In this document: positions 17,988 through 29,112 of the stretch, piece after piece
How the letters are laid out: every line of letters begins with the position of its first letter
Numbering within the stretch: position 1 is the first letter of the stretch
Source: Arthrospiribacter ruber
GTDB lineage: Bacteria > Bacteroidota > Bacteroidia > Cytophagales > Cyclobacteriaceae
NCBI RefSeq assembly: GCF_019343195.1
Contig: NZ_RPHB01000006.1
Location: 124,001 to 188,000, forward strand
Direction of reading: 5' to 3'
DNA: 64,000 bases
The notes under the pieces: model-generated
Told to the model about the DNA's origin: nothing
Database searches by the model: none
What the model saw: the letters and a program-made list of their open reading frames with translations, nothing else
Made by a program: the position numbers and the translations under genes

Positions 17988-18596
17988 TTATAGAATATTT
18001 TCATTTACCCAATCTATCTCTTTTTTCCTGATGGTATGCTCATAATCCTCGAAAATCAAGGTTTTAACGACTGCCCCCAATTTAGTCATCAACTTTTCGG
18101 AAGCTTCTATCCTGCTTAATGGCACATGAGGGTCCTTAAATCCGGATCCTATAAAAACCTTGGTCTTCTTAAAATCACCTGAGTACTTTTCTTCCCTAAT
18201 ATTTTCCCCTATCAGTCCTCCTGTAAAAGCAATTACTCCTCCGTACTTTCCGGCATTTTGCGTTGCATATTCCAAAGCCAGACACGCTCCTTGGGAAAAA
18301 CCGATAAAGAATATCTGCTCACTTGTATAGCCATGGTTATAAGCCTTATGGACCAACTCATCGATTGTTTTGATTGATTGGGAAAAAGAAGGCTCATTAT
18401 TTTTATCAGGGGCCATAAAGCTGTAGGGATACCACGTATTCCCCGGAGCTTGAGGAGCAAGGATAGTGAAACCACTTAAATTCAAGCTTTCTTTGAGACT
18501 AACAATACTTTCAGCAGTGCCTCCTCTACCATGAATCATGATGGCTATTTTACCGGACTCACCCAACTTATTCCCTTTTGCCAAAATATCACTCAT
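17988..18596 (-). CDS. Phospholipase/carboxylesterase family hydrolase, MhqD-like
   Basis: A 202-residue alpha/beta hydrolase with MIHGRGGTAES (oxyanion region, about 20-30), nucleophile GFSQGA (about 98-103), acid GFKDPHVP (about 152-159) and histidine DYEHTI (about 185-190), a full triad. Together with the preceding dioxygenase it resembles MhqD and MhqO of Bacillus subtilis, quinone-stress proteins under the MarR-type repressor MhqR. Its start overlaps the dioxygenase 3' end by eight bases. The substrate is unproven. Confidence 0.8.
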   Translation of the reverse strand: MSDILAKGNKLGESGKIAIMIHGRGGTAESIVSLKESLNLSGFTILAPQAPGNTWYPYSFMAPDKNNEPSFSQSIKTIDELVHKAYNHGYTSEQIFFIGFSQGACLALEYATQNAGKYGGVIAFTGGLIGENIREEKYSGDFKKTKVFIGSGFKDPHVPLSRIEASEKLMTKLGAVVKTLIFEDYEHTIRKKEIDWVNENIL

Positions 18597-19539
18597 AATC
18601 TGATACGTTTAAAGTTACTTTTGCAAGTTTAGATTCTATTTTATCACGTTGCGACTCTACCCATTCCGGTAACTTTAGCGCTTCTCCGAGATGAGCTTCA
18701 TCTTCATCTATAGCAAAGCCCGGTTCATCAGTCGCTATTTCAAATAATACTCCGCCAGGCTCTCTAAAATATATGGACTTGAAATAATTCCTGTCCTTAA
18801 CTTCAGTAACACGGTACCCATTACTCATTAATATATTTTGAATCTCGAGTTGGGATTTATCATTTGCTGTTCTGAAAGCAATATGATGGACAGTACCCGC
18901 ACTCTGTACACCTTGTCGGCCATTAGGATCCACCAAGATATCTACAATATCACCAGGGAGACCTTTAGTGCCATACCTGTACCTTCCATTTTCTTCACCG
19001 ATAAACTTATAATCCATGTATTTGGTGAGCAACTCTTCTGTTTGATCCTTTGAATTTAGATTTAGAGTAGCTCCATAAAAACCCATGATTGCAGAATCTG
19101 AAGGAATATGACCTTTAGTCCATCCTGGTCTGGAATCTTTATCATTGGCTATGAGCTCTATTCCCATACCATCATGGTCCTCAAACCTTATCAGCTTTTC
19201 TCCGAATCTTTCCAGAACACTTGAAACGGTTACATTGAATTTTTTCAACCTTTCCTGCCAGTAGGCTATTGAATTTGCAGGAATGGAAAAGGCAGTATAT
19301 GTCAACTCCCCGGTTCCTTTGGTACCTTTTCTGGCACCTTCAAATGGAAAAGTAGTAAATACAGTACCAGGTGTACCCAATTCATCTCCGAAATAAAAAT
19401 GGTACACATCGGGAGCATCAAAATTGATAGTTTTTTTTACCATCCTTAGCCCCAAGATACCAACATAAAAATCAATATTTTTCTGAGGATGGCCTGCTAT
19501 GGCTGTTATGTGGTGGATACCTGAAATAAGCGCTGACAT
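18589..19539 (-). CDS. Ring-cleaving dioxygenase of the VOC/glyoxalase superfamily, MhqO-like
   Basis: A 316-residue protein built of two VOC modules. Metal-ligand candidates are a histidine in GIHHITAIAGHP (about 8-11), one in GTVHHIAFRT (about 217-219) and a glutamate in GGVLFEIATDE (about 266). Relatives (MhqO/MhqA/LinE-like) are proposed to cleave hydroquinones and catechols. The neighbouring esterase, YceI gene and MarR regulator point to handling of quinones or other electrophiles. It starts 59 bases after the yceI stop, past a hairpin. Confidence 0.82.
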   Translation of the reverse strand: MSALISGIHHITAIAGHPQKNIDFYVGILGLRMVKKTINFDAPDVYHFYFGDELGTPGTVFTTFPFEGARKGTKGTGELTYTAFSIPANSIAYWQERLKKFNVTVSSVLERFGEKLIRFEDHDGMGIELIANDKDSRPGWTKGHIPSDSAIMGFYGATLNLNSKDQTEELLTKYMDYKFIGEENGRYRYGTKGLPGDIVDILVDPNGRQGVQSAGTVHHIAFRTANDKSQLEIQNILMSNGYRVTEVKDRNYFKSIYFREPGGVLFEIATDEPGFAIDEDEAHLGEALKLPEWVESQRDKIESKLAKVTLNVSDYE

Positions 19540-19565
19540 ATCTTAATTTTTTTTATTTTAAATAA

Positions 19566-19589
19566 GACCGAAGCTTTTCAGCTCCGGTC
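19566..19589 (-). terminator. Hairpin between yceI and the dioxygenase gene
   Basis: On the minus strand GACCGGAGCT and AGCTTCGGTC form ten pairs (one G-U) around a GAAA loop, followed only by TTATTT. It may be a partial terminator or an mRNA-stabilising hairpin that sets yceI above the downstream genes. Confidence 0.45.
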
Positions 19590-19598
19590 ATTGAATTT

Positions 19599-20114
19599 TT
19601 ATTGTTTTACCAATTGCACGCTGAGCAAAAGCTTCACTTGGTCAGAAACTACCACGCTACCAGCTTCTGTTACAGCATCCCATTTTAGCCCGAATTCTTT
19701 TCGGCTGATTTTTCCTTCTATTTCAAAACCTGCTTTGGTATTTCCATAAGGATCACCTGCAACTCCTCCAAAATCTACGTCCAATTCAACCTCTTTAGTA
19801 AAATCTCTAATAGTAAGATCACCTTTTAGTTTGTCACCATTCAAAATTCCTTCAAACTTTAGGTGCGGGAATTTTTCGGCATTGAAAAAATCATCTGATT
19901 TAAGGTGTGCATCTCTATCTTTTTGATTGGTATCTATAGAATCAATTTTGGCACTGAATGACACTTTTGCTCCTTGAAAGTCATCAGAACTTGTCTCAGC
20001 AGCTCCATCAAACTCTCGGAAATATCCAGTAACGGTAGAGATTACAAGGTGCTTTACTTTGAATGAAACTTCTGAATGTGTTGGGTCAATCGCCCATTTA
20101 GTTAATGTACTCAT
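19599..20114 (-). CDS. YceI family protein
   Basis: A 171-residue lipocalin-like protein. It starts WAIDPTHSEVSFKVKHLVISTV, the family's opening, and continues with DDFFNAEKFPHLKFEG and GDLTIRDFTKEVELDV. YceI proteins bind polyisoprenoids or amphiphiles such as quinones in a beta-barrel. No signal peptide is present, so this copy should be cytoplasmic, unlike E. coli YceI. It leads the yceI-dioxygenase-esterase unit and has an operator-like site matching the one before marR. Confidence 0.9.
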   Translation of the reverse strand: MSTLTKWAIDPTHSEVSFKVKHLVISTVTGYFREFDGAAETSSDDFQGAKVSFSAKIDSIDTNQKDRDAHLKSDDFFNAEKFPHLKFEGILNGDKLKGDLTIRDFTKEVELDVDFGGVAGDPYGNTKAGFEIEGKISRKEFGLKWDAVTEAGSVVVSDQVKLLLSVQLVKQ

Positions 20115-20150
20115 TGTTTTGCTATTTTATTGTGAAAGTTTAATTGATTT

Positions 20151-20176
20151 ATATATACATTAATTGTCTATACACT
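20151..20176 (-). promoter_or_regulatory. Putative MarR operator before yceI
   Basis: On the minus strand AGTGTATAGACA (reverse complement of 20165-20176) shares AGTGTATAnACA with the marR site. The adjacent ATATATACAT (20151-20160) is a second half-like element. It lies 37-62 bases before the yceI ATG. Confidence 0.5.
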
Positions 20177-20194
20177 GAATTGTTTAATTTTTTT

Positions 20195-20644
20195 TTATAC
20201 CCTCAGTTTGTCCAAAAGATTATTGAGAAGTTCAATCTCACTTTGATCAAGGCTGATCAGCTCTCTATTGAGGATGTGAATTTTCTCCTGAAGTTCTTCA
20301 AGAACTTTCAGTCCATCTTCTGTTATTTTCACATCCACCTGCCTTCTGTCAGTTGGACATTCTTCCCTTACGACCATTCCTTTTTGTTTCAGTTTTTCAA
20401 CAAGTCTTGATGCATTGGACATTTTGTTGAGCATACGCTCTTGGATGGAAGAAACAGTGATAGGGTTGCCGTTTTGTCCTTTAAGTATCCTCAATACATT
20501 GTATTGCTCAGGTGACAGGCCAAATGGCTTGAAAAGGCTACTTTGCTTGCTGACAATGTAACTATTTGTATAAAGTAAGTTTACCACAGCTTTATTATAA
20601 ATGTCCTTAAATACTTTTTGCTGGATTGCCTCTTCTATCTTCAT
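20195..20644 (-). CDS. MarR family transcriptional regulator, MhqR-like
   Basis: A 149-residue winged-helix regulator: N-terminal dimer helices, then LSPEQYNVLRILKGQNG (about 43-59), recognition region VSSIQERMLNKMSNASRLVEKLKQKG, and the wing VVREECPTDRRQVDVKITEDG (about 91-111). The DRR motif in the wing is characteristic of MarR. A near-perfect palindrome just ahead of it suggests autoregulation, and the same motif before yceI suggests that it controls yceI and the two downstream genes. The inducer is unknown; quinones or electrophiles are inferred from the target genes. Confidence 0.9.
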   Translation of the reverse strand: MKIEEAIQQKVFKDIYNKAVVNLLYTNSYIVSKQSSLFKPFGLSPEQYNVLRILKGQNGNPITVSSIQERMLNKMSNASRLVEKLKQKGMVVREECPTDRRQVDVKITEDGLKVLEELQEKIHILNRELISLDQSEIELLNNLLDKLRV

Positions 20645-20659
20645 CTGTATAAATTGCTG

Positions 20660-20690
20660 ATGTATTTAATGTATATACACTTAAATACAT
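20660..20690 (-). promoter_or_regulatory. Putative MarR autoregulatory operator
   Basis: ATGTATTTA (20660-20668) and TAAATACAT (20682-20690) are perfect nine-base inverted arms, and between them lies the ten-base palindrome TGTATATACA (20670-20679). The site sits 16-46 bases before the marR ATG. Confidence 0.65.
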
Positions 20691-20754
20691 GAAAAGGTTT
20701 CGGTTTATGATAAATTTTTTTGTTTTTTTTATCGGATGCCTATTTAGGGCATCT

Positions 20755-21555
20755 CTAGAAGGCCTCTATCCATTCTTTTATCAAACGGTTGACTTCATCT
20801 GGTTTCTCGATACTGCTGCTGTGCCCTGCCCCAGGAACTATATGCAAGTCAGCATTGGGAATGGACATTTGGATAAACTTAGCCTTTTCAGGTTTAGTAG
20901 CCACATCTTCGTCACCTACCACCACCATAGTGGGGCACTTGATATTTCTGATCTCATCCTCCACACCTTTACGGTAGATCACAGCCTCTACTGATCTTGT
21001 AATGGTTTTTTTATTGGATTGAAGTTCTTTGACCCATCTTTTATAAGCTGCCTTATTACGGGGATTTTCTATCCAACTCTGGGCAAACATAATTTTCATC
21101 ACTGAATTTGCCACAGTGGGAATCACACCAAACCACTTGACTACCCCATTCAAAAATTTATATTTCGGAAGATTCTCCACAGGTTCTGTATTGGCAGAAG
21201 TCTCCAATAGAATCAAAGATTTTATTTTATCAGGATACCTTGCAGCAAGTCTCATCCCCACAAAACCTCCCATAGAAAGTCCTGCAAAGTGCACAGGCTG
21301 CCCGATGGCTTTTTCTATAAATTCCAAAGCGTCCATGGTCAACAGATCCATGTCGTAAGGCCCCTCCGTTACTTCGCTTTGCCCCTGCCCTCTGTGATCA
21401 TAGGCAAACACAGTATAAAACTTACTAAGATATTTTATTTGTGCCTCGAACATTTTGTGACTCCAAAGCAAGCCATGGGAAAATAAAATTACTTCCTTTC
21501 CTTCGCCTTCTTTCACGTAGAAAAGTTTGACATTATTTAATTGAATATATGGCAT
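20755..21555 (-). CDS. Alpha/beta hydrolase
   Basis: A 266-residue hydrolase of the AB_hydrolase_1 family, with no signal peptide. Visible are the oxyanion segment FSHGLLWSH (about 25-33), YDHRGQGQS (52-60), nucleophile elbow GLSMGG (S94), acid VVGDEDVATKP and histidine GAGHSSSIEKP. The phrase set resembles 3-oxoadipate enol-lactonase-like and esterase members, but the substrate cannot be read. The start at 21555 (MPYIQLNNVKLFY) is preferred over an ATG 36 bases upstream, which adds a non-conserved leader. It lies 110 bases before marR, with the operator between them. Confidence 0.82.
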   Translation of the reverse strand: MPYIQLNNVKLFYVKEGEGKEVILFSHGLLWSHKMFEAQIKYLSKFYTVFAYDHRGQGQSEVTEGPYDMDLLTMDALEFIEKAIGQPVHFAGLSMGGFVGMRLAARYPDKIKSLILLETSANTEPVENLPKYKFLNGVVKWFGVIPTVANSVMKIMFAQSWIENPRNKAAYKRWVKELQSNKKTITRSVEAVIYRKGVEDEIRNIKCPTMVVVGDEDVATKPEKAKFIQMSIPNADLHIVPGAGHSSSIEKPDEVNRLIKEWIEAF

Positions 21556-21599
21556 AATAGAGAAATTAGGCGAGCGACAATAATATATCATTCATTTGA

Positions 21600-27369: not shown

Positions 27370-29112
27370 ATGAGTTTTGAAATCAAATCTTCCGGAGAGT
27401 CTTATGATGTGATCATTGTAGGGTCTGGTGCTGGAGGCGGGATGGCCTCCAAGATTCTTTCAGAAGCAGGCCTTTCTGTCGCTGTATTGGAAGCAGGAAA
27501 AGACTTTGATCCGGCCAAAGACGAAGACAGGACCCAATTGAGACCGGCATGGGAATCACCAAGAAGAGGGGCTGGAACCAGAGTTAGACCTTTTGGAGAC
27601 TTTGACCAAGCTATTGGAGGCTGGGATATTGAAGGTGAACCTTACACCCGTGCAAAAGGAACCTCTTTCGATTGGTTCAGGTCCAGAATGGTTGGGGGAA
27701 GAACCAATCACTGGGGAAGAATTTCCCTGAGGTTTGGCCCAAATGATTTCAAAAGAAAAAGCATAGATGGAATGGGGGACAACTGGCCTATAGGCTATGA
27801 CGACCTCAAGCCATATTATGACAGGGTAGACAAGCTCATTGGTGTATTTGGCACCAAAGAAGGAATATATAATGAGCCGGATGGATTTTTTCTTCCTCCT
27901 CCGAAGCCCCGACTTCATGAAATGTACATCATGAAAGGGGCAAAAAAAGCAAATATGCCCGTAATTCCTGGAAGGCTTTCTATGTTGACCAGACCTATCA
28001 ATAACGAAAGGGGAGTATGCTTTTTTTGCAATCAATGTAACAGGGCCTGCCAGGCATATGCGGATTTTTCTTCAGGAACATGTCTTGTCAAGCCTGCTAT
28101 GGCTAAGGGAAAAGTAGAACTCTACACCCAAGCGATGGTAAGATCTGTTACTACTGACGAAAGCGGAAATGCCACAGGGGTGTCCTTTATCAGCAAAGTG
28201 GACATGAAAGAATACAAACTCCGCTCCAGGGTAGTGGTATTAGGTGCCTCTGCCTGCGAATCTGCCAGAATAATGCTTAATTCAAAATCAAAGACCCACC
28301 CCAACGGCGTTGGAAACAGCAGTGGCATGGTCGGCAGATACCTGCATGATTCTACCGGAGCGGACAGAATGGGCATTATGCCAGAACTTATTGACAGAGA
28401 AAGGTACAACGAAGACGGTGTTGGAGGCATGCATGTATATACACCATGGTGGCTGGACAACAAAAAACTGGATTTTGCCAGAGGCTATCACATCGAATAT
28501 TGGGGAGGGATGACCATGCCATCTTATGGGATAGGTTTTTCTATGGACACGATGAGAAAATACCTAAAAGATGAGTTTGGAAATCCAAGCCCTAACGGTG
28601 GCTATGGGGAAGGCCTCAAAAAAGACATCAGGAGGATTTACGGATCTACCTTGGGTATGTCCGGCAGGGGAGAAAGTATACCCCAATTCACCAATTACTG
28701 TGAGATAGATAATAATGTGGTAGATAAATATGGTATTCCTGTACTAAAATTCCATTATCAATGGACAGATCAGGAAGTGAAGCAGGCCAAGCACATGCAG
28801 GATACTTTCGAGGAGATCCTTACAGAATCAGGAGCTGTACTTCTAGGAGAAAAACCAGGGCCAGAAACCATGTACGGACTGGCTACTCCAGGACGGATTA
28901 TCCATGAAGTAGGGACCACAAGAATGGGAGACAACCCATCTACGTCTGTTTTAAACAGCAACTGCCAGGCGCATGACTGTAAAAATCTCTTTGTAGTAGA
29001 TGCAGGTCCATTTGTGTCGCAAGCTGATAAGAATCCTACTTGGACTATCCTGGCATTGGCTTGGAGAACTTCTGATTATATCGTAAACGAATTGAAAAAG
29101 AAAAATATCTAA
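27370..29112 (+). CDS. GMC-type FAD dehydrogenase, large subunit with Cys cluster
   Basis: From the ATG at 27370 it is 580 residues; earlier in-frame starts add a leader without family resemblance. FAD-binding GSGAGGG is at 18-24, and the C-terminal catalytic His and Asn lie in HEVGTTRMG and KNPTWTILALAW. A cysteine cluster CFFCNQCNRAC (217, 220, 223, 227) plus C238 suggests an iron-sulphur centre, as in bacterial FAD glucose and gluconate dehydrogenases. There is no signal peptide. Export is expected by hitch-hiking on the Tat-signal small subunit encoded 11 bases downstream. The sugar or polyol substrate is not determinable. Confidence 0.85.
   Translation: MSFEIKSSGESYDVIIVGSGAGGGMASKILSEAGLSVAVLEAGKDFDPAKDEDRTQLRPAWESPRRGAGTRVRPFGDFDQAIGGWDIEGEPYTRAKGTSFDWFRSRMVGGRTNHWGRISLRFGPNDFKRKSIDGMGDNWPIGYDDLKPYYDRVDKLIGVFGTKEGIYNEPDGFFLPPPKPRLHEMYIMKGAKKANMPVIPGRLSMLTRPINNERGVCFFCNQCNRACQAYADFSSGTCLVKPAMAKGKVELYTQAMVRSVTTDESGNATGVSFISKVDMKEYKLRSRVVVLGASACESARIMLNSKSKTHPNGVGNSSGMVGRYLHDSTGADRMGIMPELIDRERYNEDGVGGMHVYTPWWLDNKKLDFARGYHIEYWGGMTMPSYGIGFSMDTMRKYLKDEFGNPSPNGGYGEGLKKDIRRIYGSTLGMSGRGESIPQFTNYCEIDNNVVDKYGIPVLKFHYQWTDQEVKQAKHMQDTFEEILTESGAVLLGEKPGPETMYGLATPGRIIHEVGTTRMGDNPSTSVLNSNCQAHDCKNLFVVDAGPFVSQADKNPTWTILALAWRTSDYIVNELKKKNI

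Follow-up and report, generated by a model that had tools for sequence, protein, structure and literature searches.

The closest described counterparts of the locus reported here are the mhqRED genes of Staphylococcus aureus and the MhqR regulon of Bacillus subtilis, where the gene for a MarR-type regulator stands beside genes for a ring-cleaving dioxygenase and a carboxylesterase-family hydrolase. For S. aureus, the part of PMC6798810 consulted describes this set (MarR regulator, dioxygenase and esterase), gives the MhqR operator as a 9-9 bp inverted repeat, TATCTCGAA-aTCGAaATA, over the transcription start, and reports that MhqR senses quinones without a thiol, while the part of PMC12893000 consulted places quinone sensing in a pocket with residues F11, F39, E43 and H111. 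We analysed 64,000 nucleotides of Arthrospiribacter ruber, hereafter the window (contig NZ_RPHB01000006.1, positions 124,001 to 188,000; C17:124001-188000 of the 5.36-Mb source genome), which carry a similar gene set with a yceI gene inserted. Leftward from 20644 to 17988, all on the minus strand, lie marR, yceI, a VOC dioxygenase gene and an esterase gene, the last two in frames that overlap by 8 bp. The original prediction had grouped these four genes, and all four open reading frames (ORFs) were confirmed at the places it gave (Table 1).

We regard the conserved MarR operon with two operators and a small regulon as real, and a function in handling phenols or hydroquinones as likely. Taken as a whole, the locus is probably an autoregulated MarR repressor operon that controls a phenol/hydroquinone regulon. 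It differs from mhqRED in its operator, which is TGTnTAnACA rather than TATCTCGAA-aTCGAaATA, in the inserted YceI, in having two operators, an unlinked pirin site and a conserved cysteine in the wing, and in a MarR that is a weak sequence match to S. aureus MhqR.

The evidence starts from a motif said to be shared by the regions before marR and yceI. In the 64 kb, AGTGTATAnACA occurs exactly twice, at 20670-20681 before marR (site S1) and at 20165-20176 before yceI (site S2); shuffled sequences contained 0.03 copies on average, and none of 100 reached two. The core TGTnTAnACA occurs three times in the window, where 0.88 copies were expected, but taken by itself the window makes only a weak case for it, because 5 of 100 shuffles reach at least three and the third copy, at 28434, is intragenic. 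The real test is conservation of the core in relatives, and its outcome is strong. The family set consisted of 80 of the 135 loci from one scan, in named genomes, among which Mongoliibacter ruber has the closest VOC match (83%). In 78 of these 80 loci holding a VOC relative, matches to marR and yceI are both present in the window's order; the other two, L074 (on a contig that breaks off immediately ahead of yceI) and L101, have no marR match and were left out. Among the 78 Cyclobacteriaceae loci, the core lies within 150 bp before marR in 76, at 31-36 bp from the marR start, and before yceI in 70, so the search of related genomes that had been suggested as a check bore the motif out. One of the two loci without S1 has TGTATGTACA, which is a single substitution away (L070), and the other has a palindrome farther upstream (L096).

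ORF calls in the same loci gave a similar picture: the core was found within 150 bp upstream of 71 of 80 yceI and 60 of 77 marR frames, compared with 7 of 416 other frames, none of 80 VOC frames and none of 76 esterase frames. By their coordinates, six of the seven core-bearing control frames face S1 or S2 from the opposite side. Five control palindromes occurred 0 to 4 times per gene class in these loci. The bases of the core are invariant or nearly so, except for two free positions at S2, and the flanks are largely variable. S2 also has a partial second copy 15 bp on, and the two together (20150-20174) form a tandem 25-mer with one mismatch.

From the gene order, the conservation and positions of the operators, the enzyme families and the catalytic residues, we infer a scheme of binding, repression, induction, substrates, enzyme activities and a role for YceI. 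A MarR dimer would bind TGTnTAnACA at S1, in the marR promoter region, and at S2, ahead of yceI-VOC-esterase, silencing both. MarR would come off the DNA when a phenolic, hydroquinone or quinone either fills its ligand pocket or modifies Cys96, which lies in the wing that contacts DNA. Hydroquinone-type rings would then be opened by the VOC enzyme and the products processed by the esterase, and YceI would bind something hydrophobic, perhaps a prenyl-quinone. Beyond the operon, this MarR would govern pirin from an unlinked site; in the source genome its targets probably also include a 3-oxoacid coenzyme A (CoA)-transferase and the aromatic hydroxylase and hydroxyquinol 1,2-dioxygenase of a hydroxyquinol pathway.

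The enzyme families are consistent with this scheme. As the original prediction held, the VOC enzyme is MhqO-like: it matches B. subtilis MhqO (3oaj) with 319 bits (E 2.4e-94) over residues 5-307 of 316, and PcpA (4huz) near full-length with 194 bits, making it closer to MhqO than to PcpA. It resembles these hydroquinone-type VOC dioxygenases both in near full-length similarity and in a conserved set of two histidines and one glutamate, i.e., His10, His219 and Glu267, which are kept in 80 of 80 loci and are likely the metal ligands. We take them to correspond to the iron ligands of PcpA, and the alignment with 4huz agrees. In the esterase, Ser101, Asp155 and His187 are kept in all 79 loci with a match and are likely the catalytic triad. 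The esterase scored 26 and 23 bits against the MhqD model NF047577 (cut-off 325 bits), and the B. subtilis control was also below that cut-off. Distant VOC genes are mostly paired with an esterase gene and lack marR; the core stands upstream of 6 of 37 of them versus 3 of 233 other ORFs.

The YceI protein exceeds the Pfam PF04264 cut-off of 23.7 bits with 149.5 bits and matches members of its family (TT1927b, 1wub; the polyisoprenoid-binding 5w2d group; E. coli YceI, 1y0g) near full-length, 1wub best. Unlike that family, YceI of the window's clade has no signal-like segment at its N-terminus, judged by eye, so the window's protein is probably cytoplasmic. In the rest of the class, the YceI proteins encoded next to MarR mostly have such a segment, again by eye, and YceI may have changed compartment when the VOC enzyme and esterase joined it. 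From family membership alone, it is possibly a quinone-binding protein.

The MarR protein passes the Pfam cut-offs (PF12802/PF01047) and is the only match in its own genome at E <= 1e-15. Its structure model (predicted local distance difference test, pLDDT, 94.1) has an ordinary MarR fold with strands at 91-95 and 103-107. Cys96, the sole cysteine, follows directly after the first wing strand in the model; 76 of 78 family orthologues and 59 of 70 orthologues of the class set introduced below share it. A thiol route of sensing is possible because Cys96 is conserved, and a pocket route is possible as well.

We also assembled 66 MarR loci with other surroundings from the class, which we take to be Bacteroidia by GTDB. 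These came from 30 retrieved loci and 40 picked by hand from the matches of 207 genomes; four loci of the window's operon (L003-L006) were left out of the 66 and are counted in the 70 for Cys96 and in the spacing count. The looser palindrome TGTn4ACA lies within 100 bp upstream of marR in 45 of 66 loci (shuffled mean 3.4, maximum 8; three control palindromes 0, 0 and 2), and the strict core TGTnTAnACA in 20 of 66 (shuffled mean 0.5, maximum 3). Where TGTn4ACA is doubled, 18 of 22 pairs are exactly 15 bp apart. A TAHHTTTG box occurs near TGTn4ACA in 35 of the 45 loci, most often beginning 10 or 25 bp past the first base of the copy, and TAnnTTTG is the -7 element of Bacteroidetes according to the part of PMC6847099 consulted. 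The class operator therefore seems to lie inside the core promoter, a position expected for a repressor.

Neighbours of the class marR genes were counted by sequence clusters on the same strand within about 900 bp, with families checked on examples. Of the 66 loci, 35 have YceI nearby, 11 have pirin and 4 a nitroreductase, and 42 have YceI or pirin. Three pirin loci (L017, L020 and L031) are like the window in MarR family and core, with the core also in the gap between marR and the next gene; they differ in that pirin, joined in L020 and L031 by a nitroreductase-family gene, replaces YceI-VOC-esterase. We also propose a wider family, tentatively and holding it slightly more doubtful than not: a class-wide and likely Bacteroidota-wide group of MarR repressors distinct from MhqR, with Cys96 as an electrophile/quinone sensor, a tandem TGTnnnnACA operator with 15-bp pitch in a TAnnTTTG promoter, and a regulon varying by lineage (YceI, pirin, nitroreductase, hydroquinone dioxygenase with esterase, hydroxyquinol pathway).

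Sites elsewhere in the genome extend the candidate regulon. TGTATATACA adjoins the start of an unlinked pirin gene (C14:638831-639679). Among the best 30 pirin places by score, from 43 genomes, 21 have the core within 150 bp, including the genome's own (20 of 29 relatives); by ORF calls it precedes 17 of 29 pirin frames of relatives and none of the 56 other frames in these loci. The only zero-mismatch tandem 25-mer in the genome lies between a hydroxyquinol-dioxygenase-like gene, nearest to hydroxyquinol 1,2-dioxygenases, and a flavin adenine dinucleotide (FAD)-hydroxylase-like gene, nearest to 2-hydroxybiphenyl 3-monooxygenase; a maleylacetate-reductase-like gene adjoins this site. Three further sites differ from the tandem by one mismatch: S2, C3:106828 and one ahead of the gene for a fused 3-oxoacid CoA-transferase. 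The core of the CoA-transferase site is kept in two other genomes, G332 and G333, in 98%-identical copies, and the dioxygenase site is kept in G333.

These catabolic genes are part of a segment of the source genome, L113 (G000:C16:263500-272500), whose hydroxyquinol dioxygenase, FAD hydroxylase, second VOC enzyme and CoA-transferase are 94-99% identical in G333; the second VOC enzyme and the CoA-transferase are also 98% identical in G332. Because identity is about 80% for the core VOC enzyme, this phenol-degradation gene set has likely spread horizontally. As a separate observation, two gene segments with three copies each on C5, C12 and C19 (L135-L138, L144 and L145) hold an internal TGTATATACA in the same context and are probably repeated elements.

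The catabolic sites give some weight to a second explanation, namely a catabolic regulator of the HpaR/PcaV type, induced by a growth substrate or intermediate such as phenol, resorcinol or hydroxyquinol and serving carbon metabolism, not defence. In addition to the sites before the hydroxyquinol dioxygenase/FAD hydroxylase and CoA-transferase genes, this explanation can draw on the protein itself: MarR passed no specific NCBIfam cut-off, its best match there was HpaR (39 of 121 bits, far below the cut-off), and MarRs with phenolic ligands are among its fold matches. However, the catabolic sites were found in few of the genomes examined, and the widespread partners are YceI and pirin. To our knowledge, neither is a known catabolic enzyme. 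We consider a catabolic regulator of this kind unlikely, although it is the strongest of the alternatives.

More doubtful still, and in our view improbable, is the idea that Bacteroidota acquired by transfer, or inherited, a genuine MhqR/MhqRED system in which an MhqR orthologue senses quinones via the MhqR pocket. The gene set does equal that of mhqRED, the VOC enzyme is nearest to B. subtilis MhqO, and the matches of the MarR protein include MhqR structures. To this extent the original prediction of a match to the MhqR regulon stands; its identification of the regulator as MhqR is not supported. The MhqR operator TATCTCGAATTCGAGATA has no match with up to three mismatches in the 64-kb window, and TCTCGANNTCGA has no match with up to two mismatches before marR or yceI. 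In a profile search of PDB, 3u2r scored 96.7 bits, and 22oz, 8xt8 and 2bv6 also outscored S. aureus MhqR (9qdr/9smz), of which 9qdr was sixth with 48.7 bits; in structure comparison, 9qdr_B (Z 15.1, root-mean-square deviation 3.5, 132 aligned) is tied with many other MarRs. In 42 of the 66 class loci, this MarR is accompanied by YceI or pirin and not by a VOC gene, and its wing cysteine is conserved, whereas MhqR is reported to be non-thiol in the part of PMC6798810 consulted. We therefore find no support for the name MhqR, given the missing Gram-positive operator, the solved MarR structures that are nearer than that of MhqR, and the conserved Cys96; the locus can nevertheless work like MhqRED.

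It is very improbable that another regulator binds TGTnTAnACA with MarR merely a target, for although the core also occurs without an adjacent marR and a Crp/Fnr-type regulator gene adjoins several distant VOC copies, the palindrome tracks marR across the class while the neighbours change, and in the distant loci none of 12 Crp-type genes has the core.

Several results weigh against an autoregulated MarR repressor operon with the regulon described here. Within the family, S2 is missing in 8 of 78 loci (L103, L104 and L106-L111); all eight are metagenome-assembled genomes with similar marR-yceI gaps, from which we judge that they form one group. An exact TAHHTTTG box lies within 25 bp of S1 in just 34 of 76 loci, and S2 is without one in 69 of 70, and because the exact box is scarce at S1 and nearly absent at S2, the promoter positions of both sites are unproven. 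In the class set, 21 of 66 loci lack even the loose operator TGTn4ACA, 22 of 66 have none of YceI, pirin or nitroreductase as a neighbour, and Cys96 is missing in 11 of 70 orthologues.

The genome-wide counts also tell against this reading. The core is not clearly over-represented, with 52 sites compared with 59 for the reversed control; of the 50 listed (52 counted), 24 were looked at, namely 20 in retrieved loci, three within the window and the one of L113. Tandem sites with up to two mismatches number 8 and 10 by strand compared with 8 and 3 for the reversed control, no clear excess. Intergenic copies of TGTATATACA at C1:75200 (L133) and C14:585867 (L140) precede unrelated genes, the contexts being a position before a short membrane-protein-like gene and one between two divergent genes. 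The pirin site is missing in 9 of 30 loci, including that of G095, a genome with the marR-yceI-VOC operon. Finally, none of the more distant homologues examined (L275-L277, 52-56%; L246-L248 and L265, 71-75%) has the hydroxyquinol or CoA-transferase site; being kept only in near-identical copies, the catabolic sites are suggestive and do not amount to conserved evidence.

Other elements surround the two operators. The larger palindrome that the original prediction described at the marR site is present in the window, where 9 of 9 outer pairs match, but it did not hold up in relatives: none of 76 has nine pairs and one has eight. The mean number of outer pairs in these relatives is 4.99 compared with 4.79 for shuffled partners (largest shuffle 5.01), and in the other register 3.64 of 9 compared with 3.53. 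With both registers at about the shuffled level, we rejected it as a conserved element and regard it as peculiar to this genome. The AAACCTTTT element before S1 is possibly part of the promoter, and 49 of 76 loci have TAnnTTT[GA] 10 bp ahead of the S1 core, with +6 and +15 as other possible placements. A AAAAAATTT tract, whose TT is invariant in 70 of 70 loci, lies 12-20 bp before the S2 core (about 20186-20194 in the window), near the marR stop codon. Upstream of marR and in the same direction, at 20755-21591, is a PcaD-like alpha/beta hydrolase gene; many relatives also have it, with the operator before it in 0 of 49.

Table 1. Coordinates of the genes, operators and adjoining elements in the window
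Feature	Position	Strand	Observation
Esterase ORF (alpha/beta-hydrolase, carboxylesterase, Abhydrolase_2)	17988..18596	-	Pfam PF02230 86 bits; best PDB match 4h0c, 206 bits
VOC ring-cleaving dioxygenase ORF, hydroquinone-type, MhqO-like	18589..19539	-	PDB 3oaj 319 bits, 4huz 194 bits
yceI ORF, YceI-domain protein	19599..20114	-	Pfam PF04264 149.5 bits; best PDB match 1wub, 110 bits
Operator S2, TGTATAGACA, between marR and yceI	20165..20174	-	Core kept in 70/78 loci
marR ORF, MarR-type regulator, 149 aa	20195..20644	-	Pfam MarR/MarR_2 (PF12802/PF01047)
Outer palindrome arms around S1	20661..20689	.	Not conserved
Operator S1, TGTATATACA, before marR	20670..20679	-	Core kept in 76/78 loci
AAACCTTTT element, 13-21 bp before S1 core	20692..20700	-	AAC invariant in 76/76 S1-bearing loci

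In an open-access library, judged from listings, we found no link of a MarR regulator with YceI, pirin or TGTnTAnACA in Bacteroidota. MarR does not occur as a whole word in the part of PMC11304471 (on B. fragilis pirins) consulted, and the part of PMC10458429 consulted names MhqR and has two 'bacteroid' passages that concern rhizobia. If the autoregulated MarR operon proposed here is true, it would provide Bacteroidota with a testable regulon for phenol and quinone handling, with exactly predicted binding sites. YceI and pirin, widespread proteins of unclear role, would gain a quinone-related context, and the MhqRED gene set would have been assembled here under a different switch.

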